DNA of 37,562 nucleotides, taken from the IMG/VR virus record IMGVR_UViG_3300034951_000027, positions 1-37,562 of that record; one strand, written 5' to 3'. The notes beneath the pieces were generated by a model, which saw only the letters and a list, made by a program, of their open reading frames with translations, searched no databases and was not told where the DNA came from. The translations under genes were made by a program, and so were the position numbers. The stretch is from a virus. Positions 2,078 through 19,823 of this stretch are shown piece after piece; position 1 is the stretch's first letter, and every line of letters starts with the position of its first letter.

Positions 2078-3132
2078 TGAGACAACAATCATATTACTAC
2101 CTAAACAATAAGAAGTATGTCTCATTATTGTCTAACTTAGATAGTTTATTGCAAGAGATCACAAATTTCTATCAACAACAAGCTAGAAGGAAGATTGTCA
2201 TTGTCGTACCAGATGATGCTATCTTAATAGAGGGGTCTATTGTCTCAGCTGCTAGGACTATCTTAGTCAAATATAACCCTATCATCAGTGATGACCAGAT
2301 AGGTGAGATGTTTGAAACTAAGTATTTCAGTGAAGTGGATAATCTTGAATACCTGAATAATGACGAGAAGGTGTTTTTAATGTTCTTTGTCGCCGGCCAC
2401 ATGGTTGATGTTCACAAGAAATACTCAAAGGCACTCCTTAAGTCTATAAATGAAGAAGAAAGAATTAATGACTTCATGGGTAAAGTTTATAAAAGAGATG
2501 TATTAGTTGGTTTTGACCCTGGGGATAAATTTAAAACTTGTGTTGAAAGGGTTGATGAATTCACGGACTCTTATGTAGATTACACAGAAACCCCAAGTTC
2601 TAAGATGTGGTCTTACGATCTATTGTTCTATGTCAACGATGTTGCACCTAATGAGTTGATCCTCTCTTATCTTAAAGAGAAGTTCACAATACACGGCTTA
2701 AAGAATATCAACGAACAATTGGCCACCTTCATACAAAAAGTTACATATATCTCCCCACTAATAGGGATGTTAGAGCACCTGGAAGAGTACCATGGCTTCG
2801 ATAAAACAAACTTCATATCTACTGTGTTTCACCAAGACAATCCAGTAATGGCTCTTTATGCTCTAAAGGATCTTTGGGTTCTTATGGAGAACACAGAAGG
2901 TTTTATAGATCTTCTTCAGAACCATGAGGATTGGGACTACTACGAGACCTACAGAGAATATAACCTGACATGGCCTATGATGATTAAATTAGTAGAGCAG
3001 GGATACACCGACACTACGATAGAGTATGTGAGAAACTATTGGGATCAGGTGGAGTTCTTACATAGACGTAAGTCTAGGATTCCATACCTTTTACACTCTG
3101 TTTTCCCATTAGTACCACCAACAGAAGGATAA
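2077..3132 (+). CDS. Unrecognised 351-aa protein of the radical-SAM operon
   Basis: I do not recognise this protein. It starts within the stop of radical SAM protein 1 (TAATG) with AGGAG seven bases upstream. It is rich in Tyr, Asp, Glu and Leu, looks soluble and mostly helical, and has no signal peptide, clear membrane segment or metal-binding Cys pattern. The N-terminal half contains a hydrophobic strand (KIVIVVPDD, about residues 39-47). Being sandwiched between radical-SAM genes with coupled translation, it probably belongs to the same modification machinery. It could be a substrate-recognition or scaffold subunit, but nothing in the sequence proves this. Confidence 0.75.
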   Translation: MRQQSYYYLNNKKYVSLLSNLDSLLQEITNFYQQQARRKIVIVVPDDAILIEGSIVSAARTILVKYNPIISDDQIGEMFETKYFSEVDNLEYLNNDEKVFLMFFVAGHMVDVHKKYSKALLKSINEEERINDFMGKVYKRDVLVGFDPGDKFKTCVERVDEFTDSYVDYTETPSSKMWSYDLLFYVNDVAPNELILSYLKEKFTIHGLKNINEQLATFIQKVTYISPLIGMLEHLEEYHGFDKTNFISTVFHQDNPVMALYALKDLWVLMENTEGFIDLLQNHEDWDYYETYREYNLTWPMMIKLVEQGYTDTTIEYVRNYWDQVEFLHRRKSRIPYLLHSVFPLVPPTEG

Positions 3133-3134
3133 AA

Positions 3135-3821
3135 ATGAACAAGCTACCACTAAGTCCGACAGATCTTGTGACTATATATAAGGAGAAGCTCACCAATAAA
3201 TCGTACGTTCTTATGATCGATTACGAGGGGTCTAAAGAAGTCCTAGGTGTTGAGCATATCTTGATCTATCTATCCAATACAGGGTTTACAGCAGGGTTTT
3301 CGTCTGTTGACGATGAGCTCTTGTTGAAGTACATAGGTCTTGACTTCCTTGTCGACTCACCAATATTGACTAGGGTTTGGGCGAATATCTTAAGAACCAA
3401 AGTAGGGGTCCCTTTATCAGATAAAGATGAACTCCTACTCGGTATCTTTAGTTTAGAGGATATTAAAAGCTTTATCTCAAACAATAAAGAAACTGTTGAG
3501 TCGCTGGAAAGGTCCTTAAGGTCAGTGGTAGTTGCCATTATTGATAACGCAATGGACGAGGAAGAGCTTACAGGCTCCGAGTCCGGGTTAGGTGTTAACG
3601 TAGGCTACTTGCTTCGAGACGCTATTGATGCTGTCATGGGTGTTATCTCTAAAAAGGGAATAAACAAACAAGTTGATACAAGTGTTTTTAACAATAAATC
3701 TAAATTCTTCGGTGGTGACATCTTCAAATGGATGTCTGATAATGGAACACTCAAGCTTGTAGCGTCTATGCTGCCTAAGGAACATGAGGTATTTTCTAGT
3801 GGTGCTATTAAACAAAACTAA
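3135..3821 (+). CDS. Unrecognised 228-aa protein of the radical-SAM operon
   Basis: I do not recognise this protein. It starts two bases after the previous stop, with AAGGA as ribosome site, and its 3' end overlaps radical SAM protein 2 by 38 bases. It looks soluble, acidic and helical, with no Cys, no obvious catalytic motif and no membrane segment. The N-terminal 50 residues (LSPTDLVTIY, then YVLMIDYEGSKEV) could be a small alpha/beta domain. Position suggests a helper of the radical-SAM enzymes, for example precursor binding, but this is only inferred from location. Confidence 0.72.
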   Translation: MNKLPLSPTDLVTIYKEKLTNKSYVLMIDYEGSKEVLGVEHILIYLSNTGFTAGFSSVDDELLLKYIGLDFLVDSPILTRVWANILRTKVGVPLSDKDELLLGIFSLEDIKSFISNNKETVESLERSLRSVVVAIIDNAMDEEELTGSESGLGVNVGYLLRDAIDAVMGVISKKGINKQVDTSVFNNKSKFFGGDIFKWMSDNGTLKLVASMLPKEHEVFSSGAIKQN

Positions 3822-4785
3822 AGATGGCTACTGGAGTAAGAGCAGTGCCAAAGAGATAGACTTCCTTAGGATAGAAGTTGTAGCCGACATACTTGATGGC
3901 TGCGACGCTAATTGTCCGGGGTGCTTCGTGCCCCGTAGGAACAAGAAGAGTGATTTATCAAAGCTGTATTGGCTTTTATCTGACTCCTCTTTTGCTGTGG
4001 ATGAACTGATAATAGGCCCAACTGATATATTCGATGCAACGAACTTTGATGACATAGTGTCTGATCCATTCCTTGCCCTTATATACAAGAAGACATCATT
4101 AGCTTATACAACAGCACTTAAACAAGATATCTCTGATATAAAGAGTAAGCTTGGCATCTTGTGGGGGTTGTATGACAACTCCACCCAGAAAGATATAGAA
4201 TTTAAAATTGTCTTAGATATAGACAGTCTAGTAGACGGCAACATGCCAGACGAGAAATTAGAGTTATTTAAAGCTGGCTCGGTCCAATTCAGAGTTAACT
4301 ACTACAAAGGTATGTTCGATAGAATATCCTACAATGAGCTGTGTGTAAAGTCTATGAGAGACTACAATACACCAATAACAATTGTACCAAGCTTTTTGAA
4401 CAATTCAAATAAGACCGGTAAAGTTTCAGAGCTTCTTAGTCATTTTAAGAAAGACCTACTGGACCAGGAAATACTCCCAGAGTTTAAAAGTTGGTACACT
4501 ATGTTTGACTCCAACTTTAACTCGTATGGCAGTTCCTCTCTTTCCTTCTTTGATAACAAACTATACTTAGCCCCCTTTATATTCGACAACATTCTACAAA
4601 GAGACAGCTCGTTCTTAGTAGAAGATATAAACAAAAGCACCTTAGCTGACAATCTAAGAGTCAGCCCTTGTGGTGACTGTAGGTTCACTATGTCTTGTGC
4701 TGAGAGGAATGTCCATCTTTATATGGACTCCAGGGGTTTAAAGGAATGCATCCTACCTAAGGAGTATATGTATGCCAATAATTAA
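3784..4785 (+). CDS. Radical SAM protein 2 (GPTD subfamily, SPASM-like C-terminus)
   Basis: 333 aa. Radical-SAM cysteines are C40, C44 and C47 (GCDANCPGCFV). GPTD at 78-81 replaces GGEP. Near the C-terminus C296, C299, C305 and C322 (CGDC, then C, then ECILP) form a short SPASM/twitch-like set that could hold one auxiliary iron-sulfur cluster. Such domains are common in enzymes that modify ribosomal peptides and proteins. The start lies inside the previous gene with AAGGA just upstream, and the end overlaps the next gene by 14 bases. It is clearly related to radical SAM proteins 1, 3 and 4 by the CxGCFV and GPTDxF segments. Substrate unknown; the CHSS-repeat protein is the obvious candidate. 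Confidence 0.88.
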   Translation: MRYFLVVLLNKTKDGYWSKSSAKEIDFLRIEVVADILDGCDANCPGCFVPRRNKKSDLSKLYWLLSDSSFAVDELIIGPTDIFDATNFDDIVSDPFLALIYKKTSLAYTTALKQDISDIKSKLGILWGLYDNSTQKDIEFKIVLDIDSLVDGNMPDEKLELFKAGSVQFRVNYYKGMFDRISYNELCVKSMRDYNTPITIVPSFLNNSNKTGKVSELLSHFKKDLLDQEILPEFKSWYTMFDSNFNSYGSSSLSFFDNKLYLAPFIFDNILQRDSSFLVEDINKSTLADNLRVSPCGDCRFTMSCAERNVHLYMDSRGLKECILPKEYMYANN

Positions 4786-5932
4786 AAACAACCTATATTA
4801 TGAACTAACCTCTGAAACCAAGACCAAACCAGTATCTGCTGTTAAAATACAGATGGATGTTTTAGATGGGTGTGAGCATAATTGTAACGGTTGTTTTGTT
4901 AATAGAAGAAATAATAACCCTAGTGTTAAACATCTAAAAGACTTCTCTTCGTTCATAGGGAGTATAACTGACGAAGGTGTTCTTGTTGATGAGATACTAA
5001 TAGGTCCTACAGACTTTCTATCATCCATAAATAACTATAGTGTTCTTTCTAATAAAAGTTTATTAGCTGTTATTAATAAGAACTCACCTATACTGGCATT
5101 TGTAACAACATTAATAAGTGGTGATTTAAAAAGATTCTGCGACTTCTTAAAGGATAATATAAACCTTGATACAGAGATTGAAATAGGTATCGCCACCAAC
5201 CCAGATGAACTTATGTCGTTAGAGTACTCAAGAATGGTAAAGTCCAAACTAGAGTTCTTGAGTAGCAATATAGAGCACGATATAACGTACACATTTATCA
5301 TCAACGTAGATGATGTAAGTAGAAGCTATGAGAGTTTACACAGTTTTGTTGTTAAGCAATTTGACACGACATTTGACTTGGTACCGTCCATAGCCAGAAG
5401 TAAAAACAAAGTTAGAATACTTGACAAAATTACTGGGTTAAACATTAACTACAACAGATTGGATGCCGGTAACAGTGCTAACAACATAATGGTGGATCAC
5501 TCTCACTCTGGGACAAACTTTAAGGTCCTAAACTTTAAGAGAGGCGACTGGTGGGTATCACCGTTCTTATATGAAAATATGGCGATATATGATGACCTGT
5601 TTAAGATAAACAAGTTCAGTGAAGTTCAAACAATGTTAGAGAGGCAGTACAGTTACGACACAGAGTGCTCCTCCTGTAACTTCTTAACATCTTGTTCTTC
5701 CAGGTTCATACCGACACTTATGAAGTATCTGGACACTGAATCATGTGTTTGTCCAAAAGAAAACATGACCAAGAACATCCACTCCTATAATAAGGCGTCG
5801 ATGGAGATGTACAATTGGGATGAATATAGTGTATCTTCTGATAAGAAGGGTTATAGGAAGAAATTTCTTATACACGATGAGGGTTCTGAGGAGCTGGTTA
5901 AAATAAAGAGGATCTACGATGGGGCTAGTTAA
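4772..5932 (+). CDS. Radical SAM protein 3 (GPTD subfamily, SPASM-like C-terminus)
   Basis: 386 aa. Radical-SAM cysteines C34, C38 and C41 (GCEHNCNGCFV) closely match those of proteins 1, 2 and 4. GPTD lies at 79-82. C-terminal cysteines C299, C302, C308, C325 and C327 resemble a SPASM/twitch auxiliary-cluster site. A tail of about 60 residues after the last Cys, rich in Lys, Tyr and Asp, is absent from proteins 2 and 4. The start overlaps the preceding gene by 14 bases, with AAGGAG upstream. The family resemblance points to tandem duplication within this operon followed by divergence, perhaps so that different residues or repeats of one substrate are handled by different copies (inference). 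Confidence 0.88.
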   Translation: MPIIKNNLYYELTSETKTKPVSAVKIQMDVLDGCEHNCNGCFVNRRNNNPSVKHLKDFSSFIGSITDEGVLVDEILIGPTDFLSSINNYSVLSNKSLLAVINKNSPILAFVTTLISGDLKRFCDFLKDNINLDTEIEIGIATNPDELMSLEYSRMVKSKLEFLSSNIEHDITYTFIINVDDVSRSYESLHSFVVKQFDTTFDLVPSIARSKNKVRILDKITGLNINYNRLDAGNSANNIMVDHSHSGTNFKVLNFKRGDWWVSPFLYENMAIYDDLFKINKFSEVQTMLERQYSYDTECSSCNFLTSCSSRFIPTLMKYLDTESCVCPKENMTKNIHSYNKASMEMYNWDEYSVSSDKKGYRKKFLIHDEGSEELVKIKRIYDGAS

Positions 5933-7031
5933 AGATAACTTCAGAGCAAATACTGTGGACAAGTGTCATGAAAGGTACGACAACCACGAGTACATAAAAC
6001 AACTTAAAGTAAACATGACTCTGGATATTCTAGATGGTTGTGTTCACAGTTGTCCAGGATGCTTCGTCAATAGAAGGGGAAACTCTGTATCGGACGAAAC
6101 ACTTGAAAGTCTGTACGGAATACAAGAGTTGTTTAATAGCAATGGAATAAGGTTCTCCTCGTTCATATTAGGTCCAACTGATATTTTCGGGAGCAAGAAC
6201 ACACTAGAGTTGTTATCAAACAAATACCTAATAAAAGCTTTTAGTAATTGCTCAACGATAGAGATGGTCTCTACCTTGGACATGAATACTTTTGAGCACA
6301 TATCTAAAGTAATAGACCTGTTCAATGCAATACCTAAACAGGCACAGGGCTTTATGTACGCTATGCAGGTTGTAGTAGACCCATACCAGTTCATAAGCAA
6401 CCCATTCTACAGAGATGAGAAATACTACAATCTGGTTAAAGTACTAAGCCTGTTCAACAATGACATTGATTTCAAATTAGTCTTCAATATGGAAGGTAAG
6501 GATTTGGACCTTGCAAAGGTATCTAAAATAGCCAAAGACGAGTGGGATTGTCTGGTTGAGCCTATCCCTTCTTACCAGAGATCTACTAAGAGTGGTAACC
6601 ACAGGGTTGTTACTGACCAATGGAAAAAGACAATAGCAGAGGCCTATTCTGAGGAGTCTAAGGAGTACATAGCTTTAACAATAGCTGATTCTAACCAAGG
6701 TGCTGGTCTTGAAATGACGTACGTTCTCAGTAAGGGTGAGTTCTATTCACCTGCATTCATCTACGATGTGGCTACGATAAGGGACGAAAAGTTCCGTATA
6801 AAAGACATTAAAGATATAAACTCCTGGACAGAGATTAAGAAAGACCTATATCTTGACGGTATGAAGTACATGGTAAAGACCGAGAGCTGCTCGGATTGCC
6901 CTAGGAGACATATCTGTTTAAACAAATCTGTGTTAAACTACATGGAACATTACAAGTTCACAGAATGTGTATTACCAATGAGTGTACTGTTGAATTATAC
7001 TAACGACGATATAACTGCTAAGGATAAATAA
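5919..7031 (+). CDS. Radical SAM protein 4 (GPTD subfamily, SPASM-like C-terminus)
   Basis: 370 aa. Radical-SAM cysteines are C41, C45 and C48 (GCVHSCPGCFV), and GPTD is at 85-88. C-terminal cysteines C324, C327, C333 and C350 (CSDC, HIC, ECVLP) match the SPASM-like set of proteins 2 and 3. It overlaps protein 3 by 14 bases, with AGAGG before the start. It completes a run of four paralogous enzymes. The ECVLPM motif here aligns well with EEILPM in protein 1, which shows that protein 1 descends from a form with the cluster. Substrate not known. Confidence 0.88.
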   Translation: MGLVKDNFRANTVDKCHERYDNHEYIKQLKVNMTLDILDGCVHSCPGCFVNRRGNSVSDETLESLYGIQELFNSNGIRFSSFILGPTDIFGSKNTLELLSNKYLIKAFSNCSTIEMVSTLDMNTFEHISKVIDLFNAIPKQAQGFMYAMQVVVDPYQFISNPFYRDEKYYNLVKVLSLFNNDIDFKLVFNMEGKDLDLAKVSKIAKDEWDCLVEPIPSYQRSTKSGNHRVVTDQWKKTIAEAYSEESKEYIALTIADSNQGAGLEMTYVLSKGEFYSPAFIYDVATIRDEKFRIKDIKDINSWTEIKKDLYLDGMKYMVKTESCSDCPRRHICLNKSVLNYMEHYKFTECVLPMSVLLNYTNDDITAKDK

Positions 7032-7040
7032 GAGGGCGCT

Positions 7041-8063
7041 ATGGATGTGACTAAAATAATACTTGATAACAAGCGCCCAATGATAGGTGAAATAGAGTTG
7101 ACACTCTTTGAGAATTGTCACCTCAACTGTTCATTCTGTCACCACGACAAGAAGTCTCACGTTGGTATTACACCGGTGGAGATACTATCTAAGACAAAAC
7201 AGGTCGAAGAGTTCCTGGTCAAGATGGGTAATCATGTGGACACCGTTCAGATTAACATGGTTGGTGGTGAGCTGTTCCAAGATAGGATGTCCCACCTATA
7301 CCCAACGTATCTTGAGTTGCTTATAAGGATTAAGGAGATATACGACAGACTTGGTTATGACATACAGGTTGTATGGGTAACATCCTTTCAGTTTAAAAAG
7401 AGAGAGCTTGTACAGGGGTTGCTTGACGACCTCAATGCAATAAACATACCCTCAAGCCTCATAGCTTCATACGACTTTGAAGGTAGGCCAACCAAAGGCT
7501 CTTACGCTACAAACGTAGATTATTTTGCAGACTATATTATTTCAATCAATATGGTTGCAACCACAGAGTCCATCATCAAGTTCATGGGTATTGAATCGGA
7601 CGATTACTTCGACTACCTCTACAATAAGTTTGATAACTTCTTCTTTGATGATTACATCCCAGATAAGGGTGAAGATCACCAGATACCTTCCGACTCGTTG
7701 TATTTGTCGTTCATGAAGTATCTATATAGAAAGTACCCAGACATCGCCCCATACGGGGATTTGATAAAGAACGACCATAACAAGATGCATTGCATGTCAT
7801 TGAATAAGGTGACAATCTTCCCAGACAACTCAACATCTAACTGTCGATGGGACAGGTACACTGATGATGACTTCAATACTCCGTTAAACAGGGCTGACAA
7901 CACATCTATGATGACTAGCTTCATGGATGAGTATGGTTGCCTTTCATGTAAACATTTCGACAGGTGCGGTTTCAGGTGTTATACACAATGGGATTGGACC
8001 AACCGAGTCAGGGATACTCCTGATTGTGTGATGAGGATGTGGTTTGATAGTATTTTATGTTAA
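7041..8063 (+). CDS. Radical SAM/SPASM protein 5
   Basis: 340 aa. Radical-SAM cysteines C26, C30 and C33 (NCHLNCSFCHH) and a GGE motif at 75-77 make this a more ordinary family member than proteins 1-4. The C-terminus holds a full SPASM-like set: C251, C268, C300, C303, C309, C313 and C329, enough for two auxiliary [4Fe-4S] clusters, with an extra Cys as the last residue (C340). SPASM proteins usually act on peptides or proteins (sactisynthases, AnSME, PqqE, MftC). Ribosome site AGAGG lies upstream and the end overlaps protein 6 by 20 bases. It is not an obvious close relative of proteins 1-4. Confidence 0.87.
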   Translation: MDVTKIILDNKRPMIGEIELTLFENCHLNCSFCHHDKKSHVGITPVEILSKTKQVEEFLVKMGNHVDTVQINMVGGELFQDRMSHLYPTYLELLIRIKEIYDRLGYDIQVVWVTSFQFKKRELVQGLLDDLNAINIPSSLIASYDFEGRPTKGSYATNVDYFADYIISINMVATTESIIKFMGIESDDYFDYLYNKFDNFFFDDYIPDKGEDHQIPSDSLYLSFMKYLYRKYPDIAPYGDLIKNDHNKMHCMSLNKVTIFPDNSTSNCRWDRYTDDDFNTPLNRADNTSMMTSFMDEYGCLSCKHFDRCGFRCYTQWDWTNRVRDTPDCVMRMWFDSILC

Positions 8064-9060
8064 GACAACAGAGACGTGTAATCTAAATTGCGAACATTGT
8101 TTTACCTCTGGCAGTAAGGGGAGGAAGATATTCTTCAATCCTGAAGATACAGCTAAGTTTGTAAACCACTGGGGTAATGAAGAGATACACATAGATTTCC
8201 ATGGCGGTGAGCCTTTCTTGGCACCACTAGATGATATGAAAAGATTTCATACATTGGTTCGAGATGTTAACCCGAGTTCGTCTATCGGTGTGACCACCAA
8301 CTTGACATTCAAACTCACACCAGAGAAAGTATCGTTTATTCAGAATGAATTATCCGGTAGGATCTGCACGTCTTGGGACGAAGGGATACGTTGGACAAAT
8401 GTCAGACAATATGACCTATGGAAGAAGAATGTAAGGTTGTTGATTGGTCTCGGTGTTGATGTTAAAGTAAATGTTTCAATGAACACCAAGTTAATGAAGC
8501 GCAGTCCAGCAGGAGTCCTTGCCCTGTTTAGGGAGTTAGGTATAAGAGAGATTGCCTTTGAAAGGCTTACCCATGATGGGACCGCTGAAAGAAACCCACA
8601 CATATTCCCAACCAACAAGGCAATTGATGATTGGATATGGGAGATGGACAAGGTAAACGACAGGGATTATTTCGACAATGTACTTCTTGAATCTGTCTAT
8701 GCAAAGTTTGAAGGAAAAGGAAACAGAAACTCTACCTTTTGTAGAGGGTGCGAAAAGATAATGTTTACTATCAATGCAGATGGTACTGTTGCAGGTTGTC
8801 CTAATTCAGCACCAACCGCCCACTACGCCACTATATATGATAGTAAAGAAAATGTACTGGCAAGTCCTGAAAGGGCGTGTATGATTGCCACTGAAGCCTA
8901 CCAAAACCCAGAGTGTATAAGCTGTGAGGTTTTTGGACAGTGTGGTGGAGATTGTTACAAGTTAAACTGGGACACACAGTGCCCAGCACCTAAAAGGTTA
9001 ATGTATGGACTTAATAATAAAACCAACAGAGCTATGCAACTTCAAGTGCACGTTTTGTAG
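8044..9060 (+). CDS. Radical SAM/SPASM protein 6 (TTG start)
   Basis: 338 aa. This is the most canonical enzyme of the set. The N-terminal motif is C12, C16 and C19 (CNLNCEHCF), GGEP is at 54-57, and a textbook SPASM pattern follows with C233, C236, C252, C279, C291, C294, C300, C304 and C313 (including CGGDC). The start appears to be TTG at 8044 inside the preceding gene, with GAGG upstream; no ATG precedes the Cys motif in frame. It overlaps radical SAM protein 7 by 56 bases. The organisation resembles anaerobic sulfatase-maturase/HxsB-type peptide-modifying enzymes, but I cannot assign the subfamily. Confidence 0.87.
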   Translation: MIVFYVKTTETCNLNCEHCFTSGSKGRKIFFNPEDTAKFVNHWGNEEIHIDFHGGEPFLAPLDDMKRFHTLVRDVNPSSSIGVTTNLTFKLTPEKVSFIQNELSGRICTSWDEGIRWTNVRQYDLWKKNVRLLIGLGVDVKVNVSMNTKLMKRSPAGVLALFRELGIREIAFERLTHDGTAERNPHIFPTNKAIDDWIWEMDKVNDRDYFDNVLLESVYAKFEGKGNRNSTFCRGCEKIMFTINADGTVAGCPNSAPTAHYATIYDSKENVLASPERACMIATEAYQNPECISCEVFGQCGGDCYKLNWDTQCPAPKRLMYGLNNKTNRAMQLQVHVL

Positions 9061-9976
9061 TTCAACGGACATATCATCAGAGGACGCTAATTACCTTCCG
9101 GTTGAGAGTGTCTTTGAGTTCCTGGATAATAACCCAGACACAAACACAATCATTGTGAATGGTGGTGATCCGTTGATGATGAAACCAGACTACTATTGGC
9201 AGATAATAGAGTATCTTGACTCTCATGAAATGAGTACCTCGATATCTTTCACAACTAATCTTTACCCTTTTTACGTTAATCCTGACAAGTGGTCAAAACT
9301 CTTTAACCATCCAAGGATGGGGATAACAACGTCCTTTCAGTATGGAGGGGGCCGTCTGAAAGGTGATCGATCTGTGTTCACTGCTGAGGACTTTTGGAAT
9401 GTATCCGACGCTATGTTGGACCATGTAGGTTATCGTCCAGGGTTTATATCGGTTGTCGTCGATGGTGAGCAGGACCTGGCAATTAAGAATGTCGAGTTAG
9501 CGAAAGAAATGGACGTTGAGTGTAAATTAAACTATGCAATGGCGTCCGGTATACAAGATAGACCTTTACTTCTGGCAGACACTTATCGAGTTTATCTCGA
9601 TATATATGACATGGGTTTGGCAGAGTGGGAGTACAATACCAAAGACATTATCAAGTCAATGCGTAACGAGGCCACAGAATGTCCTAGAAACAGAAGTTGT
9701 GAGACAGGCATACGATGCCTTCAACCCGATGGAGATGAGTACACCTGTGGGGCATTTGCTGACGATAAAGAGTATCCTGTAGGAGACAACTTCCGAGACG
9801 ATCCTGAATTGCTTTCAATGAATGATAAGTGTTTTACATGTCCATTGTTTACACTATGTAATGGGTGTGCCAAAACAATTAAAGATCACAAGCGATTTAA
9901 CATGCAAGGTGAGCATTGTTTTAGAATGAAAGAAATGCAAACTGAACTGTTGGAGATGCGTGATGTTGGACTGTGA
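9005..9976 (+). CDS. Radical SAM/SPASM protein 7
   Basis: 323 aa. Radical-SAM cysteines C11, C15 and C18 (LCNFKCTFC) begin almost at the N-terminus, so the start at 9005 is fixed even though it lies 56 bases inside the previous gene. GGDP at 53-56 is a variant of GGEP. Downstream cysteines C226, C232, C238, C248, C276, C279, C285, C288 and C305 make a rich SPASM-like region able to hold two auxiliary clusters. The end overlaps the cupin gene that follows. Substrate unknown; likely a protein or peptide by family. Confidence 0.87.
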   Translation: MDLIIKPTELCNFKCTFCSSTDISSEDANYLPVESVFEFLDNNPDTNTIIVNGGDPLMMKPDYYWQIIEYLDSHEMSTSISFTTNLYPFYVNPDKWSKLFNHPRMGITTSFQYGGGRLKGDRSVFTAEDFWNVSDAMLDHVGYRPGFISVVVDGEQDLAIKNVELAKEMDVECKLNYAMASGIQDRPLLLADTYRVYLDIYDMGLAEWEYNTKDIIKSMRNEATECPRNRSCETGIRCLQPDGDEYTCGAFADDKEYPVGDNFRDDPELLSMNDKCFTCPLFTLCNGCAKTIKDHKRFNMQGEHCFRMKEMQTELLEMRDVGL

Positions 9977-10349
9977 GAAGGATATTTTACAAAACGGAAC
10001 TGACTTTTATTTTATTGATGATAAAGGATTAGACTATAAGATTGAACAACCAGAGGCAGTGATAAAAGTTGCAGAGGGTAGGCACACTGTTAAAGTTGAA
10101 GGCCTTGAGTCGTTCTATGATTATGGAAAGACGGTACACGGTTTCATTTCTCCCGCTGGTTCGGTGTCATTTAAAACGCACGTTGACCCTGTGGATCTTG
10201 ATATAAAGTGTCTTCACGGGCGCAAGTGGATGGACGTATCTGGTGTTATCCGGTATGCCACAGAAGGTGTTGTGATTTTCGTACGTAATAACGTACCACA
10301 TAGGGCGATCAATACCTGTCGCAGTGTGTCACTCAGCATAGAAATATGA
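9963..10349 (+). CDS. Small cupin/JmjC-like (possible Fe(II) oxygenase) protein
   Basis: About 128 aa. I prefer ATG 9963 because GGAG lies seven bases upstream; GTG 9960 is possible. Motifs suggest a double-stranded beta-helix: PAGS then SFKTHVDPVD (HxD, H74 and D76 counted from the GTG), a turn GRKW, and VPHRA with the distal His (H114), followed by a strand SVSLSIEI. This H-x-D...H order is the metal triad of cupin_8/JmjC-type 2-oxoglutarate oxygenases, though the protein is shorter than usual enzymes and could instead bind a substrate or metal. It sits between two radical-SAM genes and overlaps both (ATGA with the next), so it probably acts in the same pathway, for example hydroxylating a residue (inference). 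Confidence 0.65.
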   Translation: MLDCEKDILQNGTDFYFIDDKGLDYKIEQPEAVIKVAEGRHTVKVEGLESFYDYGKTVHGFISPAGSVSFKTHVDPVDLDIKCLHGRKWMDVSGVIRYATEGVVIFVRNNVPHRAINTCRSVSLSIEI

Positions 10350-11233
10350 ACGTATCCATAAACCCATCTTACTTTTGCAACTTCTCTTGTAGCTTCTGTT
10401 ACTTGACGAAGGAGCAACTTAACAGTAAGACAAAGGTCTCCATAGACGAGCTAGATAAGAGGTTGTCAGAAATCCCTGTCATAGACTATGTGGACCTGTA
10501 TGGTGGTGAGTTTGCCACCCTCCCAAAAGCATACGTGTCAGAACTAAAAGCTACAATAAGAAAGCACTATACTGGTGAGATCAATATAGTGACCAACTTC
10601 TCTGTGATGAGAGATGAGCTATTTAGTGATGATATCTCTCTGGCTGTCTCATATGACTTTAAGGCAAGAGAGAAGCACGAAGATGTTTTTATGAATATGT
10701 TAATGAGTCCTAAAGAAATATCAATTCTTATACTGGCATCTCCTGAAGTTCTTGAGATGAATGTGGATGAGATGATACTTCAATTAAACATACTAGGACA
10801 ACTGAAGTCTGTTGAGATAAAGCCGTACTCACAGAACCAGTCAAATTCATTAGAGATAGACGGTAAAAAGTTTGACAGATTTATACTTGACTGGATCAAC
10901 TCAGATATTGTGAAGAACTTTATCTTTACAAATGAAGATAACCTAAACAAGGTCTTAGATGGTACAAGAAATGCCTTCTCTGATGATCATGTCTATATCA
11001 CACCAACTGGTAAGTTTGCTGTTCTTGAGTTTGACGATAACGACAAAGAGTTCTTTATGGAGCTTGACAGTATAGACCAGTACTATGAGTGGTCTAAGAA
11101 AGAGAGAGATAACATCTACCCGGGTTGTTACGATTGCAACTATCTCGGTAGATGTCTGACAGAGCATTATAGGAAACTGTCTTGCTCTGGACACAAGGAG
11201 TTAATAGAGGCATATGAAGGACTGGAAGATTAG
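10346..11233 (+). CDS. Radical SAM protein 8
   Basis: 295 aa. Radical-SAM cysteines are C11, C15 and C18 (FCNFSCSFCYL), with GGE at 53-55. C-terminal C261, C264, C270 and C280 (GCYDC, GRC, SC) form a short SPASM/twitch-like set. The start overlaps the cupin stop (ATGA) and no strong ribosome site is seen, which implies translational coupling. It is the last of eight radical-SAM genes in about 10.4 kb. Sequence does not reveal substrate or chemistry. Confidence 0.87.
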   Translation: MNVSINPSYFCNFSCSFCYLTKEQLNSKTKVSIDELDKRLSEIPVIDYVDLYGGEFATLPKAYVSELKATIRKHYTGEINIVTNFSVMRDELFSDDISLAVSYDFKAREKHEDVFMNMLMSPKEISILILASPEVLEMNVDEMILQLNILGQLKSVEIKPYSQNQSNSLEIDGKKFDRFILDWINSDIVKNFIFTNEDNLNKVLDGTRNAFSDDHVYITPTGKFAVLEFDDNDKEFFMELDSIDQYYEWSKKERDNIYPGCYDCNYLGRCLTEHYRKLSCSGHKELIEAYEGLED

Positions 11234-13134: not shown

Positions 13135-14721
13135 ATGCCTTACGAAACAAGTCCGGAGATTGACTTCTCCTCTGTTGGTTTAGTTACCGACATTCCATCC
13201 AATGCAATACCAACAGGTGCTTGGAGTAATTGCTTAGATGTTAGATGTAGGAATGGATCTGTTCAGGGCGTTAATGCTTTTGAAGATGATATAGTCCTAC
13301 ATGATCTAACTGCCAACATTATTGGTGGTAAAGCTATGGCCATCACTCAGTTCACTCCAGCCGGATCTACAGATCTAGTCATTGCCTATATCGTTAAAGG
13401 CGCCAATGGCAATGGTAGCGTTGTTCTTTATGACACAGACTCGACTAATACGAGTCCATATAATGACATAACAAATGCAAACACCGACCAGGTATTTACA
13501 TTTGACGATAAGTACCCTCCACAAATCTTTGTGTTTAATGAGATACTTATAGTCAACCCTGCTAAGGATGCACCTCCACAAGTAACTGATGCAAAGATAA
13601 CTGCAGGAAGTCTGCACGAGCTTGACAACTGGGACAGTATCAACGACAGTAGTGGTGAGCCGCTTATAGCTAGAGTGCTAAGGCCGTTCAACAATAGATT
13701 GGTTGCTATGAACATCTTTGAAGAGCATGATCAAGGTGGTAACACTGCTAATGACGTGTTCCTTCCTATCGATTTCTTGTGGTCATCACATATCACAACA
13801 CTGCAATCACTAACAGCAGCTACATGGACAGCCTCAACAACTAACACAGCTGGTGATAACTTCCTTACAGAGACTCCGGGCAAGATACTTGACGGCGGAC
13901 AGCTTGGTGAATTCTTTATTGCATACAAGTCTGACAGTGTTATTCGTGTAAGAGAGACTGGCGACAACTTTGTGCTAGCTTTTGAAAGCATTTTTGAAGA
14001 TGACGGCATATACTCTACAAGATGTTTTGCTAACATCGGTGGCTCTCAACATTTGGTTGTTGGAAACTATGGTGTATACATTCATGACGGACAGTCACAA
14101 AGACAGGATATTGCAAAAGATCTATTCAAAGATACTATGTACTTACTTGTTGAGCCTGGCGAAAAGGAACGTGCATTTGTATTTCAGCAGACAAGAGATA
14201 AAGAAGTTTGGTTTTGTTTAAGCTCTAAGAATAACGAGGTAGGCGGAGTAAGGCAATTAGGTTGTGACCTTGCTTTTGTATATGACTATGGAAGCGGTAA
14301 GCTTCACAAAAGAAGTCTTCCGGGAGTAGTAGACGTATATGAAACAGAACTTAATGGACAGCTGGAAATCTTTGCAGCTAAACCTGGAGACACAAACCTT
14401 CAGAAACTTTCAAGTACAGCTTTGGTTTCTGGTGGCTTCTTTGAGCGAGAGAATGACAATCTCACTGACAACAATAGAATTAAACAGATTAATCGTATAC
14501 ATGTTAATGCTAAAGGAAGCGTCAATCTTGCTGTAGTTGGAACAAACAACCTGAACGACTCAAAGATTTATTCAGATGTTACCTTTGATCCCGCAACAAC
14601 CCATAAGGTTGATGTTAGAACATCAGGAAGATATATGAACCTAAGGGTTACAATGAACGGGGATACAAACCCAGAGTTAACTAAATTACAATTTGACCTT
14701 AAACTTATGGGTGTTAGATAA
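13135..14721 (+). CDS. Tail nozzle/tubular-like virion protein
   Basis: 528 aa, start after TAGGAGACATAT. The N-terminus (SVGLVTDIPSNAIPTGAW, then NCLDVRCRNGSVQ) matches a pattern common at the start of podovirus tail nozzle or stabilisation proteins, where a line about default or path is followed by a beta-propeller body. The rest is beta-rich with many short strands and Asp-Gly turns, as in P22 gp10/T7 gp12-type nozzles that extend the portal vertex. It is followed by fibre genes, as expected. I am fairly confident of a tail role, less of the precise family. Confidence 0.62.
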   Translation: MPYETSPEIDFSSVGLVTDIPSNAIPTGAWSNCLDVRCRNGSVQGVNAFEDDIVLHDLTANIIGGKAMAITQFTPAGSTDLVIAYIVKGANGNGSVVLYDTDSTNTSPYNDITNANTDQVFTFDDKYPPQIFVFNEILIVNPAKDAPPQVTDAKITAGSLHELDNWDSINDSSGEPLIARVLRPFNNRLVAMNIFEEHDQGGNTANDVFLPIDFLWSSHITTLQSLTAATWTASTTNTAGDNFLTETPGKILDGGQLGEFFIAYKSDSVIRVRETGDNFVLAFESIFEDDGIYSTRCFANIGGSQHLVVGNYGVYIHDGQSQRQDIAKDLFKDTMYLLVEPGEKERAFVFQQTRDKEVWFCLSSKNNEVGGVRQLGCDLAFVYDYGSGKLHKRSLPGVVDVYETELNGQLEIFAAKPGDTNLQKLSSTALVSGGFFERENDNLTDNNRIKQINRIHVNAKGSVNLAVVGTNNLNDSKIYSDVTFDPATTHKVDVRTSGRYMNLRVTMNGDTNPELTKLQFDLKLMGVR

Positions 14722-14730
14722 AGGAGTCCT

Positions 14731-16971
14731 ATGGCTACAATTTCCGAAACGGAACTACAAAGAAGGCTTAAGAGGCTTGAGTCTAGTAATGCAGGAACCA
14801 CAGGCTCGGCCTTGATTGTAAAGGTCGGGGATCACTATGAGTACGCCTCGGATTATATCTATGTAGCCTACGCCTCCAACATTACAAGTGCCACTAATGG
14901 AATCATAGCTAGTCAGGACGATGCTACCGACTTCCAACAGGAGCCTTTTGATGCACTTGGAGATCTTCTAAGTTTTAGAGGGTTCTACACATCTAGGTCA
15001 GTGTATGCTTCTGGTGATCCAACAGACTACACTTGGGGTGACGTATCTTTGATTCCTAGCTTCGCAACCTCTGAACGATACTATCATACCTCTTTTGGTT
15101 TATTGTCCGAAATAGGGGATCCTACGACCTCTGCGGGTACATGGACACTTGTGACAGCCAGCAGTGCAGTTCCAGGTGAAGCGGTATGGATTGCTGAAAG
15201 ATTTACTATTAATGATAATCCGTCAGCCTGGAGTATCTTTCCAGCAAGAGCTACAGATACAAGTCCAATGATCTTGTCTCTCGCTAAGTCAGGCTTTAAC
15301 CAGCCAACCTTAGGTGACGCAACGTGGATAGCTGATGTAATTATTGCAGCAACAGCGCACACCGGAAGGTCCTACTCAAACCAAAAAGAAATTGGTTATG
15401 GAACCGCTGTAGCTATTGATTATGATAATGGCAAGTTGTTTGGAGTCTTCCAGAGGAATGGCTCAGGTCAGGATGTATGGGTAACTCCCACTGACTTCAT
15501 TGATGGAGACTTGTTTGTAGACGGCACGATACTTGCTGACAAGCTTGTGGCTAATACAATTACTGCCGGACAGATAGCTGGTGATACAATCACAGCTAAT
15601 GAAATACTTGGCAACACGATCACAGCTGCCGAAATATTTGGTGGAACTATTACGACAGATCTTATTAATACCGACGGTATTAGCGCAAACAAGATTAATG
15701 TAAATGATAGTATCGCCTTTAATACAACCACAGGATCTACAAGCGATCCAGTTGGGCACTCCACAGGTCTTCAGTTTAACAAAACAGATCTTCACTCAGG
15801 TGTTGCGGGTGTCTTTCTAGGCACTCACAAAGAGTCTGACAACAGTGTTACTTCTGGTCTTCATATAGGTAACCTTACATCTTATGTAAAAATTACATCA
15901 GAGGATGATGGTTCTGGCAGTGGAGATAGTAATGTACTTCTGGCGAACACCAGGTTCCTATCAACCTCATTAACAAATGGAGTTTTGGAATACCTTTCAT
16001 CAACTACATCAAACACAAATGGCAAAAGAGTTGTTGACATAAGTTCGGTTACTGCGGGTACTACAATATCTTTCGATATTTACGGTGCGGGTGGCGGTGG
16101 TGCTTCAAATGAAGGAACCACAGGTTCAGTTGCGGATAGTGACTTAGTTACTTATAACGGCACTGCTGGATCTAACGGTAGCGCTTCCTCCGTTACTGTA
16201 AAAAACGGAACTACTATTGTTCAAAAAACTTATGACGGCACAAATCTAACAGACTCCGGAATATCCTCTGGAGGCTTGGGTGGTGCAACTGGTGGATCAG
16301 GATCGGCAACTGGAGCGGCTGGAACATCGTCTGCTGCTCCAGATCCAAACGCCGATGGTGGTGATGGCGCTGCTGGAGAAACTTCGACAACTCCTATAAT
16401 AGATATGGAAGGAGGTCTTGGAGGTGGAATACCTACTATACTGACAGGATCCTTTACCAAGGCCGCCAATGACACAACGATTGAGATAATTGTTGGTGAT
16501 GGTGGTAATGGGGGAGCGGGACATTCTGCTGCTGGTGCTTCTGCGAGAAGTGGAATAACAGGTAGCGTTGGCTACGTCAAGATAACAATTGCAAGCGCAG
16601 GTGCTGCAACAGAGATCTTTACAATATCCACTGACAAGGTTCAATCCGAGGTAGACGTTGTTGTAAACGGCAACGTAACAGCTGACGAGATAATCGACAG
16701 ATCTGATGTAAGACTTAAGACTGACATCTCTCCTATTAGGAATGCCTTAGAGATTGTTAAAGATCTCGAAGGTGTTGTATACACTAGAATAGATTCAGGC
16801 AAAAGAGAAGCTGGCGTTATCGCTCAGGATGTTGAAGAGGTTTTTCCTTATGTTGTATCTGAGAACTCAGACGGATACCTAGGCGTAGCTTATGGTAGAA
16901 TGGTCGGACTTCTTATTGAAGCAGTTAAAGACTTATCAAAACAAATAGAAGAACTTAAGAAAGGAGATTAG
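14731..16971 (+). CDS. Tail fibre with C-terminal S74-type intramolecular chaperone
   Basis: 746 aa, start after AAAGGAGTCCT. Middle region (about residues 263-316) carries short repeats of the type NTITAxxI separated by eight to twelve residues, typical of trimeric fibre shafts. A Gly/Ala/Ser-rich region follows (about residues 450-620). The last 90 residues are a peptidase S74 domain: RSDVRLKTDI, then GVIAQDV, VFPYVV and LLIEAVKDL. The catalytic Ser and Lys would be S658 and K663. This domain trimerises the fibre and then cuts itself off. It is probably the receptor-binding fibre. No endolysin-like domain is present. Confidence 0.85.
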   Translation: MATISETELQRRLKRLESSNAGTTGSALIVKVGDHYEYASDYIYVAYASNITSATNGIIASQDDATDFQQEPFDALGDLLSFRGFYTSRSVYASGDPTDYTWGDVSLIPSFATSERYYHTSFGLLSEIGDPTTSAGTWTLVTASSAVPGEAVWIAERFTINDNPSAWSIFPARATDTSPMILSLAKSGFNQPTLGDATWIADVIIAATAHTGRSYSNQKEIGYGTAVAIDYDNGKLFGVFQRNGSGQDVWVTPTDFIDGDLFVDGTILADKLVANTITAGQIAGDTITANEILGNTITAAEIFGGTITTDLINTDGISANKINVNDSIAFNTTTGSTSDPVGHSTGLQFNKTDLHSGVAGVFLGTHKESDNSVTSGLHIGNLTSYVKITSEDDGSGSGDSNVLLANTRFLSTSLTNGVLEYLSSTTSNTNGKRVVDISSVTAGTTISFDIYGAGGGGASNEGTTGSVADSDLVTYNGTAGSNGSASSVTVKNGTTIVQKTYDGTNLTDSGISSGGLGGATGGSGSATGAAGTSSAAPDPNADGGDGAAGETSTTPIIDMEGGLGGGIPTILTGSFTKAANDTTIEIIVGDGGNGGAGHSAAGASARSGITGSVGYVKITIASAGAATEIFTISTDKVQSEVDVVVNGNVTADEIIDRSDVRLKTDISPIRNALEIVKDLEGVVYTRIDSGKREAGVIAQDVEEVFPYVVSENSDGYLGVAYGRMVGLLIEAVKDLSKQIEELKKGD

Positions 16972-16972
16972 T

Positions 16973-18109
16973 ATGCCTTTACCATCAAGTGGTAAGATTA
17001 CTACACAAACATTTAGAGATTTCTTTGAAATCAGTTCGTCAACTCCAATCAGTAGTTCTGACTGGTATCGTGGTGGCCCTTACGTTAGGGCCAACTACCA
17101 GACTGGGAATGGTAATAGTTCCATTAACAATCAGGTACCTACAAGCGGAAGGATAACACTAAGCGATTTGTATGGTGTGTACAAGGTTGTCCCTGCTAGT
17201 AGTCTTACACCAGGTAACTCAACCGAACAAGACATAACACCAAATCCACCCAACTATCCTAACACCCCAGACGAACCAGCTGCACTTGGTGGTGATGGTA
17301 ATAATACCAATGTTGGCCCTCCAGATCCATGGGCTAACCCACCAAGCACAACAAATGCTACTAATCAGGGTAATGGACCAATGAACCCACCAAACAATGA
17401 TTACGGTGCGGGACCAGCTGGTGCCAATCAAGACCCGTATCAGAATACAGCCACCAATAACGTATCCAATGGTGGCACGGTTGGCTATCAGAACAGTCCG
17501 GACGCAGCACTGCCTCCAGCTCTTAGAGACCCTTATGCGGCCAACCAAAACCCTCCGACTGGAAACAACAACTATACCTTCTACACTCCTGGGAACACCA
17601 ATCCGGGCAATCCTAACCCAGGCAATCCTTCAGACCCGGGTCAGTTTGGAAATGGAGATTTAAACCCCGGAGGTAGTAATCCACCTGGAAATAACCCGGG
17701 AAATTGGACATATGCAGACCCAAAACCACCTGGAAACTACAACTACAATTCCTCCAACCAGGGCAATGGACCAATGAACCCACCAAACAATGACTATGGT
17801 GCGGGACCATCAGGAACCCTTCAGGATAGTTATACAAACAATGTCACTACCAATACATCTAACTTTGGTAATGCAGGATATCAAAACAGTCCGGATCTTG
17901 GCGGCGTACCGGGAACCCAAGACCCTTTCGCAAATCCCGTTAATACTAACAACCCTCCAAACGAGACGGCAACGCCACCGACATACCCAGATAGTAGTTT
18001 AGCTGGAGATGAGCCGGCGCCAATAGGTGACGGTAGTGACGCTACAGGGACCCCGGACGAAACAGGAGGCAACCCCTCTTACTATGTTAATCATGAGAAA
18101 CTTGTATGA
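16973..18109 (+). CDS. Pro/Asn/Gly-rich repeat virion appendage protein
   Basis: 378 aa, no Cys, AAGGAGATT before the start. The N-terminal 80 residues (LPSSGKITTQTF, SGRITLSDLYG) resemble the short beta-motif found at the start of many phage appendage proteins. From residue 90 on it is dominated by Pro, Asn, Gly and Thr, with collagen-like PGNPNPGNP tracts. Two copies of a block of about 65 residues share an identical NQGNGPMNPPNNDYGAGP segment. Such low-complexity, extended chains are likely exposed on the particle. Its stop overlaps the start of a 2-oxoglutarate oxygenase gene (ATGA), with a second oxygenase next; proline hydroxylation of this protein is a reasonable inference. Confidence 0.72.
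   Translation: MPLPSSGKITTQTFRDFFEISSSTPISSSDWYRGGPYVRANYQTGNGNSSINNQVPTSGRITLSDLYGVYKVVPASSLTPGNSTEQDITPNPPNYPNTPDEPAALGGDGNNTNVGPPDPWANPPSTTNATNQGNGPMNPPNNDYGAGPAGANQDPYQNTATNNVSNGGTVGYQNSPDAALPPALRDPYAANQNPPTGNNNYTFYTPGNTNPGNPNPGNPSDPGQFGNGDLNPGGSNPPGNNPGNWTYADPKPPGNYNYNSSNQGNGPMNPPNNDYGAGPSGTLQDSYTNNVTTNTSNFGNAGYQNSPDLGGVPGTQDPFANPVNTNNPPNETATPPTYPDSSLAGDEPAPIGDGSDATGTPDETGGNPSYYVNHEKLV
17363..17557 (+). repeat. Intragenic repeat, copy A (Pro/Asn-rich block)
   Basis: First copy of a repeat of about 195-205 bases inside the Pro-rich virion gene. It begins with the codons for NQGNGPMNPPNNDYGAGP and ends near ANQNPP. It matches copy B at 17756-17962 most closely over the first 55 bases and again around GYQNSPD. 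Confidence 0.8.
17756..17962 (+). repeat. Intragenic repeat, copy B (Pro/Asn-rich block)
   Basis: Second copy of the block described at 17363-17557. The opening 18 residues are identical between copies, later parts diverge but keep the order YxNN-TxN-GYQNSPD-DPxAN-NPP. The boundaries are approximate because they were read by eye. Confidence 0.78.
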
Positions 18110-18687
18110 ATATACCAGCACACAACCCAAGCGCCTCTACAGCCTGTCACTACAGTGGCGGGTTTACTGAAGATGAGCTTGAGGAGCTTGATAAGTATCT
18201 AAACTCTCTGATGACTTTCAAGGCGGAGGTTGGAGACATAAAAGGACCTGCGCCTGTAAAGACAAGGGTGAGTGACGTTGCCTTTTTTAAGCCAGAAGAG
18301 CTTCCATGGTTCTCTGTGCGTATGCACGGGATTATTGACAAGATCAATAAGGATTGGTTCAAGGTTAATATAGATCATATAGGTGAGGGCTATCAGTACA
18401 CGGAGTATCATGCAACAGAGGGTGGTCACTACAACTGGCACGTAGACTCTCACAATACTTTTACCGAGACAACTAGAAAGTTATCTATGATTCTCGCCCT
18501 TAATGATTATAAGGATTATAAGGGTGGTGAGTTTAAGGAGCGCCTAGGTGGAGGCACAAAGACTTGGAAACTAAATCGTGGTGACATTCTAGTAATACCT
18601 AGTTATGCTTTGCACAAAGTAACAAGGGTATCTAAAGGAACTAGAAAATCTATAATCTGCTGGGTCAGTGGACCGCAATATATATAA
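18106..18687 (+). CDS. Fe(II)/2-oxoglutarate oxygenase 1 (prolyl-hydroxylase-like)
   Basis: 193 aa. The double-stranded beta-helix motifs are clear: YTEYHATEGGHYNWHVDSH with iron ligands H112 and D114, RKLSMILALN, GGEF, RGDILVIPSYALHKV with distal ligand H170, and R180 with S182 to bind 2-oxoglutarate. This is the prolyl-4-hydroxylase/PiuC-like superfamily that hydroxylates protein side chains using O2. The start overlaps the stop of the Pro-rich repeat protein (ATGA), so the two are translationally coupled. That physical link suggests the Pro-rich protein as its substrate (inference). Complete; no key residue missing. Confidence 0.85.
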   Translation: MNIPAHNPSASTACHYSGGFTEDELEELDKYLNSLMTFKAEVGDIKGPAPVKTRVSDVAFFKPEELPWFSVRMHGIIDKINKDWFKVNIDHIGEGYQYTEYHATEGGHYNWHVDSHNTFTETTRKLSMILALNDYKDYKGGEFKERLGGGTKTWKLNRGDILVIPSYALHKVTRVSKGTRKSIICWVSGPQYI

Positions 18688-18696
18688 GGATGAGAG

Positions 18697-19383
18697 ATGA
18701 GTGATCTTGATTTAAGAAAGATGAAAGACCCATTTGTTAAGGCAAACATAAACACTAGCTTCATAGCGTGTTATGACGGGGCATTCTCAGACAAGTTTTG
18801 TGATGATACTGTAGCATTGTTCCATCACCTTCAGAGTAAGTATGGAGATCAACATCCTGATGAAAACGACAACCCTATGGTTAACCATAAGTTTAATAGC
18901 GTCGGCCACAGGAAGGACAATTCAAGGTTCTTCCAGCAGATAGCTAACGAGTGGGACGAGGAAGATAGACAGGATAACATTAGGTTGTGTAAAACATTCT
19001 ATGACGGTATAGATGAGTACTTGCAAAAGTACATAAAGTCCATAGGTAAAAGTCTTGGTAAGCTTGAAGCAGATTGTTTTAAGGTTCATCACTACCCACC
19101 AGGCGGACACTTCTCGATCTTCCATCACGAACATAGTGGTGAGAATGACAGGTACAAAAGTAGAGTTCTAGTGTACATGGTGTACCTAGGTGAGGACATT
19201 CATAATGGCGAAGGGACAACTGAGTTTATTTATCAGGGCATCCACGTCAAACCAAAGAAAGGTAGGTTAGTAATATTCCCTGCAGATTTCACACATACCC
19301 ATAGAGGTAATCCAACATACCAGCAAGAGAAGTACATTGCTACTGGCTGGTGGTTAACGGAAGGATCTAACGGAGTTTATTAA
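18697..19383 (+). CDS. Fe(II)/2-oxoglutarate oxygenase 2 (HxE variant)
   Basis: 228 aa, start after AAGGATGAGAG. Core motifs are HHYPPGGHFSIFHHEHSGE, where H143-x-E145 would replace the usual HxD, then SRVLVYMVYLGED, GEGTTEF, KGRLVIFPADFTHTHRG with distal H200, and EKYIATGWW. The HxE carboxylate and the FTHTHRG segment are typical of a phage-enriched group of 2OG oxygenases. The substrate is not known; adjacency to oxygenase 1 and the Pro-rich protein suggests the same target or a second site. It ends in TAATG overlap with the next gene. Confidence 0.82.
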   Translation: MSDLDLRKMKDPFVKANINTSFIACYDGAFSDKFCDDTVALFHHLQSKYGDQHPDENDNPMVNHKFNSVGHRKDNSRFFQQIANEWDEEDRQDNIRLCKTFYDGIDEYLQKYIKSIGKSLGKLEADCFKVHHYPPGGHFSIFHHEHSGENDRYKSRVLVYMVYLGEDIHNGEGTTEFIYQGIHVKPKKGRLVIFPADFTHTHRGNPTYQQEKYIATGWWLTEGSNGVY

Positions 19384-19823
19384 TGTCCTATACAATAAGA
19401 CGCCTGCCAGTGGAAGAAGCACTGAGCAGGTACAACGAGTTCAGAGAGCATATAGAGAAGGCTCTAAAGTACAGCAGCGGCGAGTGGACAGCAGTTCAGA
19501 TAATGCAAAGCGTTATCACAGAGCCTGGTATATTTCACATATGGGAAGTCTTAAAGGACAATTGCCCAGTCGCCTTTGGCACAACTAAATACTTACAGTA
19601 TCACAACTTCACAGCAATGCACGTTATGACATTGGCTGGGGATACTGGTGGAGATATTGTAGAGTGGTCTAAAATATTTGAAGAAGAAATGAAGAAGCAC
19701 CCAGAGATTGACTGTCTAGAACTGTCAGGTCGTAGGGGTTTCGTAAAACAATTAGAGAAAGCAGGGTGGACCGAGAGGTACACGACCATGCGTAAATCAC
19801 TTAAGGAGATGTTAAATGTCTGA
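19383..19823 (+). CDS. GNAT-like protein, T7 gp13-type internal virion protein
   Basis: 146 aa, overlapping the oxygenase stop (TAATG). The C-terminal pattern CLELSGRRGFVKQLEKAGW, followed by a short strand TMRKSL, is that of the acetyltransferase-like (GNAT) fold found in T7 gp13-type proteins, which are small virion or assembly proteins of podoviruses. The acetyl-CoA loop (Q/RxxGxG/A) is not evident, so an active acetyltransferase is doubtful. Placed just before internal virion protein genes, as in T7-like phages. Confidence 0.58.
   Translation: MSYTIRRLPVEEALSRYNEFREHIEKALKYSSGEWTAVQIMQSVITEPGIFHIWEVLKDNCPVAFGTTKYLQYHNFTAMHVMTLAGDTGGDIVEWSKIFEEEMKKHPEIDCLELSGRRGFVKQLEKAGWTERYTTMRKSLKEMLNV

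Follow-up and report, generated by a model that had tools for sequence, protein, structure and literature searches.

Can a tailed virus hydroxylate the prolines of its own tail protein with enzymes encoded directly beside it? The question is raised by the record IMGVR_UViG_3300034951_000027 of a marine bacterial virus, whose 37.6 kb (positions 1 to 37,562) are called the window here, and in which a protein rich in proline, asparagine and glycine is followed by two predicted 2-oxoglutarate (2OG)-Fe(II) oxygenases. A sequence-only reading of this DNA had proposed that the enzymes and their likely substrate share one translational unit. The three plus-strand open reading frames (ORFs) are placed as it described, at 16973-18109 (the Pro/Asn/Gly-rich protein, 378 amino acids), 18106-18687 (ox1, 193 amino acids) and 18697-19383 (ox2, 228 amino acids). 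The stop of the Pro-rich ORF and the start of ox1 share four nucleotides (ATGA), and ox2 begins 9 nucleotides downstream of the ox1 stop. Hydroxylation of proline in the neighbouring tail protein by ox1 and ox2 is the best, though unproven, reading of this arrangement; its chemistry is purely predicted, and we consider its prospects evenly balanced.

The composition of the candidate substrate is unusual within its own genome: it contains 16.4% Asn, 15.6% Pro and 12.7% Gly, whereas the runner-up in Pro content among the real plus-strand genes of the window reaches 8.4%. An N-terminal adaptor domain of about 70-75 residues (16973-17200), shared with a sister virus and other phages, precedes a low-complexity Pro/Asn/Gly-rich part (17201-18106) that holds 10 Pro-Gly dipeptides and conserved NPPNNDYGAGP[A/S]G repeats. 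A repeat search found a single internal duplication of 149 nucleotides (17354-17502 and 17747-17895, 71% identical) and saw no tandem array. The ORF starts 1 nucleotide past the stop of an S74 tail fibre gene and is preceded by AAAGGAG; this position, together with the adaptor domain, suggests that the product is a tail-associated appendage. The whole protein found no match by tblastn in phage records; the N-terminal domain alone finds relatives.

Comparison with related records indicates which parts of the module are maintained. The proteins of IMGVR_UViG_3300034953_000029 are 100% identical to those of the window, and this record probably stems from the same virus or from one almost identical to it. 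The true sister, IMGVR_UViG_3300021443_000009, preserves the gene order, the ATGA overlap and the composition, with identities of 88% over the N-terminal 75 residues, about 55% over the Pro-rich part, 76% for ox1 and 85% for ox2, so that the enzymes are better conserved than their presumed substrate. Nonsynonymous and synonymous divergence (dN and dS) are 0.17 and 1.7 for ox1 and 0.09 and 2.1 for ox2; both genes are intact and under strong purifying selection. The PGNPNPGNP-type tract on which the sequence-only reading had drawn occurs in the window protein (TPGNTNPGNPNPGNPSDPG) but is not kept in the sister, and the motifs recurring in both are others, namely NPPNNDYGAGP[A/S]G (two copies per protein), KPPGNY, NQNPPTG and, at the C-terminus, SY[YW]xxHEKLV, whose conservation may partly stem from the ox1 translation start. 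In the sister, ox2 and the gene after it are separated by an additional ATPase gene (L002:8093-8761) that looks PhoH-like by eye and is absent from the window.

Both enzymes match PHROG 61 and exceed the curated PF13640 cut-off of 27 bits, ox1 with 50 bits (5.9e-13) and ox2 with 45.3 bits (1.8e-11). By alignment, the predicted facial triad and basic 2OG-binding residue are H112, D114, H170 and R180 in ox1, and H143, E145, H202 and K212 in ox2, the latter set being invariant in 24 aligned sequences. The Lys of ox2 lies at H+10, as in collagen prolyl 4-hydroxylases (P4Hs), and ox1 combines HxD with Arg at +10; the pairing of HxD with Lys at H+10 that marks the collagen/vCPH type of P4H was found in neither. 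AlphaFold models (predicted local distance difference test score 82 for ox1 and 77 for ox2) show the double-stranded beta-helix fold and retrieve PDB matches by the hundred at E <= 0.001; all of the top ones are 2OG oxygenases. PiuC matches ox1 by phmmer (5.4e-7) and holds Foldseek rank 1, and the ox1 model aligns with PiuC, vCPH, Pseudomonas putida P4H and PHD2 at Z about 18. For ox2, the viral collagen prolyl hydroxylase (vCPH) of the virus PBCV-1 (5c5t) is the first match both by phmmer (1.5e-4) and by Foldseek (3.6e-11), followed in the latter by P. putida P4H and PHD2. Because the best structural matches are of this kind, the modelled folds are assigned to the protein prolyl hydroxylases, a class that does not by itself prove the substrate. 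Similarity to the PKHD-type (PiuC/YbiX) catalytic domain is present in ox1, which ends at the catalytic core (193 residues against 225 in 9ghl) and has no C-terminal PKHD domain or Pfam match to one.

The strongest argument for proline as the target, at one remove, is the link of the wider ox1 family to collagen-like fibres. Relatives of ox1 on viral contigs (about 30-40% identity) directly follow tail proteins whose (Gly-Pro-Thr)n tracts make them collagen-like, many of these loci also hold a tail assembly chaperone (PF01391 and PF16778 matches), and the family tree contains a clade of 25 rows, almost all adjoining such (GPT)n fibres. In 120 contigs picked by the DNA pattern of (GPT)3GP, the density of PF13640 was 33/Mb within 3 kb of a (GPT)n tract and 6.3/Mb elsewhere, with such a domain inside that distance in 16 of the 120 records (within-record placement p = 0.022). 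Most collagen-bearing phages lack such an enzyme, which makes it an optional partner. A second control used 80 loci picked by the tail-assembly-chaperone gene alone, some of them near-duplicates and counted where the sequence sufficed: an oxygenase was present at 5 of 6 collagen loci and at 2 of 49 others (one locus had collagen only and 47 had neither; Fisher p = 3.5e-5), and both collagen-free cases were weak matches (21-23 bits) to other oxygenases. Within the (GPT)n tracts Pro occupies the X position 602 times and Y 31 times, with Thr most often next, so the chemistry would differ from that of animal collagen P4Hs, which act on Y. Peptides of Gly-hydroxyproline-Thr form stable triple helices and those of Gly-Pro-Thr are not known to do so; our literature search returned nothing usable on this triple-helix work. 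Peptides that would be candidate substrates include NPPNNDYGAGPAG, KPPGNYN and (GPT)5. A scan of the genome collection yielded just four alphaproteobacterial metagenome-assembled genome loci with ox1-like oxygenases (L480-L483), none with collagen; there the oxygenases, a clear tandem pair in three of the four, lie upstream of a 509-residue gene that by eye resembles phosphoglycerate mutase (GpmI).

A further enzyme accompanies part of this family. Where the collagen tract carries Lys in Y (GQKGQKGE), an ox1-type locus continues with a gene of about 600 amino acids that combines Glyco_transf_25 (GT25), a PLOD glycosyltransferase and a C-terminal 2OG oxygenase, and after dereplication this fused gene was present at 6 of 6 Lys-bearing and 0 of 14 Lys-free loci (p = 2.6e-5). 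The same domain types make up the collagen lysine-modifying enzymes of animals and mimiviruses (PMC9546862). As the ox1-type enzyme also occurs with Lys-free tracts, by elimination it would act on Pro or Thr. Collagen-like fibre, ox1-type oxygenase and fused gene stand together in Synechococcus phage S-CAM9 (L301:2540-11396) and at L302, L017, L063, L146, L010, L085, L009, L011 and L065, loci that are apparent collagen-modification operons in bacteriophages. In the cultured Synechococcus phages S-CAM9 and S-PRM1 a collagen-tract fibre, a small gene, an ox2-type and an ox1-type enzyme follow one another with short overlaps; the S-CAM9 fibre (gp222) also carries S74 (Pfam), and the PLOD-like enzyme was recognized by Pfam in S-CAM9 and by a custom profile in S-PRM1. 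Marine tailed phages may possess dedicated tail-protein hydroxylation, with prolyl hydroxylase-like enzymes beside (Gly-Pro-Thr)n fibres, additional fused GT25/PLOD-glycosyltransferase/lysyl-hydroxylase-like enzymes where Lys is in Y, and in the window a variant whose enzymes, of the same types, would act on a non-collagen Pro/Asn/Gly-rich tail protein, a generalization that we rate a little short of even.

The connection of the window protein to the virion would run through its N-terminus. About 70 residues fit the pattern P-x-x-G..YRG..[VI]PTSG-I..G of an adaptor domain (PHROG 30374-like) that is common to Vibrio phage KVP40 (KVP40.0254), Burkholderia phage JC1 (JC1_60) and 78 other viral contigs, with about 36-48% identity between the window and other phages; the JC1 protein stands directly after a tail fibre. 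The window protein itself matches PHROG 30374 at its N-terminus; that profile gave no match in four records in which it was tried, and the controls were likewise silent. The C-terminal parts of the 78 relatives are Gly-rich, Thr/Ser-rich or otherwise Pro-poor (<=5.5% Pro), and the whole KVP40 and JC1 proteins contain 2-7% Pro. A Pro-rich C-terminal part (13-17.5% Pro) and the ox1-ox2 pair both occur in the window lineage only, the pair being present in 0 of the 78 others. The widespread 70-residue domain with exchangeable Gly-, Thr/Ser- or Pro-rich C-terminal parts (L322-L401) is perhaps a tip-swapping module.

On this basis the three genes would constitute a late tail module in which the adaptor domain carries the Pro-rich protein on the virion. 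In the infected cell, ox2, ox1 or both would hydroxylate Pro in the long, probably disordered Pro/Asn/Gly-rich part of this protein, either ahead of tail assembly or while it is under way, and the hydroxyl would either stiffen the chain (polyproline-II-like) or allow a sugar to be attached to a part of the tail exposed at its surface.

Several observations weigh against this proposal. The ox1 proteins of the window and its sister are not part of the collagen-linked clade and sit on a long branch close to paralogues from cyanophages, in a tree whose deep forks are weakly supported, and by this placement the window enzyme was rejected as a member of that clade. The metal motif of ox2 is HxE in all 24 aligned sequences, compared with HxD in known P4Hs. 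The window Pro-rich protein has no Gly-X-Y (collagen) tract, and none with Pro was found in the nearby tail fibre of the window. Among 80 relatives of ox2 a collagen tract lies nearby in 2 and a Pro-rich ORF in 2, of which one belongs to the virus of the window itself; the idea that the ox2 family is linked to collagen was accordingly rejected. Since the window and its sister are one lineage, the coincidence of Pro-rich part and enzyme pair counts once, and the pairing of a non-collagen Pro-rich protein with oxygenases is effectively a single event. Finally, at three loci (L364, L369 and L374) a Gly-rich, Pro-poor adaptor protein is followed, about 1.15 kb downstream of the adaptor gene start, by a weaker-scoring oxygenase (65 bits against the ox1 profile), an argument against any need for Pro in the oxygenase neighbourhood. 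The proposal of viral prolyl hydroxylation therefore stands in part: the prolyl-hydroxylase-like folds, the purifying selection, the coincidence of Pro-rich part and enzyme pair and the collagen ties of ox1-type enzymes favour it, but the position of the window ox1 in its tree and the mostly Pro-poor surroundings of ox2 relatives do not. The sequence-only reading had itself named oxygenases frequently lacking a Pro-rich neighbour as evidence that would count against it, and, given the two counts of 2 in 80, this is the situation in the ox2 family, though not in the ox1 clade.

Three other explanations have to be considered. The enzymes could modify a tail protein at a target other than the Pro of the neighbour, such as the Gly-rich S74 fibre or Asn, Asp or other residues. 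Asn equals Pro in abundance in the window protein, oxygenases follow Gly-rich adaptor proteins at the three loci just described, and in S-PM2, S-CAM4 and ACG-2014e ox2-type enzymes come directly after a short tail fibre region that is not notably Pro-rich; however, the closest folds are prolyl hydroxylases, and among the adaptor relatives a Pro-rich part goes together with the enzyme pair, so that we regard such a target as unlikely. The oxygenases could also be chance cargo within the tail module, acting on a host or general phage target (a ribosomal protein, EF-Tu, nucleic acid or the 2OG balance). The PHROG 61 oxygenases of cyanophages are numerous and occur in differing gene contexts, as illustrated by the ox2 relative of S-CAM8 next to Dam and a clamp loader and by the Syn19 oxygenase next to uvsW; DNA repair or 2OG metabolism has been proposed for cyanophage oxygenases (Sullivan et al., 2010; PMC3037559); and the structure of the P. 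putida P4H, whose fold is close, was determined with EF-Tu bound. The statistical tie between ox1-type enzymes and collagen-like tail fibres and the ATGA coupling to a tail-type protein, kept in the sister, argue against such cargo, which appears improbable. That the Pro-rich protein serves simply as a low-complexity spacer or as a tip facing the receptor, with no hydroxylation and the enzymes uninvolved, would agree with the very varied low-complexity parts of adaptor relatives that have no oxygenase, but it is highly improbable given the strong purifying selection on both enzymes and their retained metal and 2OG ligands.

Hydroxylation of the neighbouring protein's Pro has its nearest precedent in PBCV-1. 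Virus-encoded, non-collagen Pro-rich repeats are substrates of the PBCV-1 vCPH, which is likewise virus-encoded and to which, of all solved structures, ox2 is nearest in both sequence and fold. The differences are that PBCV-1 is a eukaryotic algal virus whose vCPH has HxD and measured activity, whereas ox2 has HxE and a predicted one. Work on the PBCV-1 prolyl 4-hydroxylase with viral peptide substrates (Eriksson, 1999) is mentioned in a 2022 Baltic survey, which terms the viral use of the enzyme cryptic (PMC9301287). For ox1, the PiuC/PKHD-type proteins (9ghl, 9qn0-9qn4, 3dkq) are the closest solved sequences and among the closest folds, with HxD in both, although ox1 is shorter and sits in a tail operon rather than beside iron uptake. 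Mimivirus L230, R699 and R655, which hydroxylate and glycosylate viral collagen-like proteins (PMC9546862), are nearest for the collagen loci and share domain kinds with the PLOD-like genes of S-CAM9 and others; Mimivirus is a giant virus of amoebae, however, and the window has neither collagen repeats nor a PLOD-like gene. The cyanophage 2OG-Fe(II) oxygenases (PHROG 61, T4-GC 240/412) form the broad group that includes ox1 and ox2 and are usually listed as auxiliary with no assigned role, whereas in the window their translation is coupled to that of a Pro-rich tail-type protein. The collagen-like fibres of Escherichia coli prophages resemble the marine ones in having Pro mostly in X and Thr among the frequent Y residues; bacteria and viruses were stated there to lack collagen prolyl hydroxylases (PMC3368898), unlike the marine phages here, which carry candidates. 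Phage oxygenases have also been found to resemble human EGLN3 structurally (Phold; PMC12774648). We found no paper on operons of phage fibre and hydroxylase in a search that left subscription papers and preprints largely outside. The sea abounds in phage oxygenases of the ox1/ox2 type, and in the present loci, those of the cultured S-CAM9 and S-PRM1 included, enzyme and likely substrate adjoin. If the proposal is true, bacterial viruses would possess collagen-type post-translational chemistry, of which the window would hold a simpler Pro-rich form, and the tails of some phages may be chemically hardened or decorated by enzymes of their own.

The surroundings of the module are those of a tail region. 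Its upstream neighbour is the plus-strand tail fibre gene at 14731-16971, with a C-terminal Peptidase_S74 intramolecular chaperone (PF13884, 9.4e-15) and many PHROG tail-fibre matches. Before it lies a tail gene (13135-14721) whose product aligns along its entire length, at 34% identity, with a structural protein of Roseobacter phage CRP-7; particle proteins of other phages, Pseudomonas phage tf among them, are remoter kin. Judged by this gene, CRP-7 is the nearest relative with an annotation; no oxygenase is annotated in it near the corresponding site, and the module is therefore not general to that phage group. Downstream, a plus-strand gene at 19383-19823, whose start overlaps the ox2 stop, looks GNAT-like by eye and had no match in Pfam, PHROG and NCBIfam searches; JC1 has an N-acetyltransferase (JC1_63) at a similar position. 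Elsewhere in the window, the large subunit of ribonucleotide reductase is encoded on the minus strand at 34977-36758 (PHROG 84, 1.4e-163). Eight genes with the CX3CX2C motif of radical S-adenosylmethionine enzymes lie inside 10.4 kb at 881-11233 (starts at 881, 3784, 4772, 5919, 7041, 8044, 9005 and 10346), a remarkable number for a virus of such size. Most of them bear C-terminal SPASM-like cysteines, and two of them come nearest, among NCBIfam models, to those of peptide maturases, for instance PapB and DynA.

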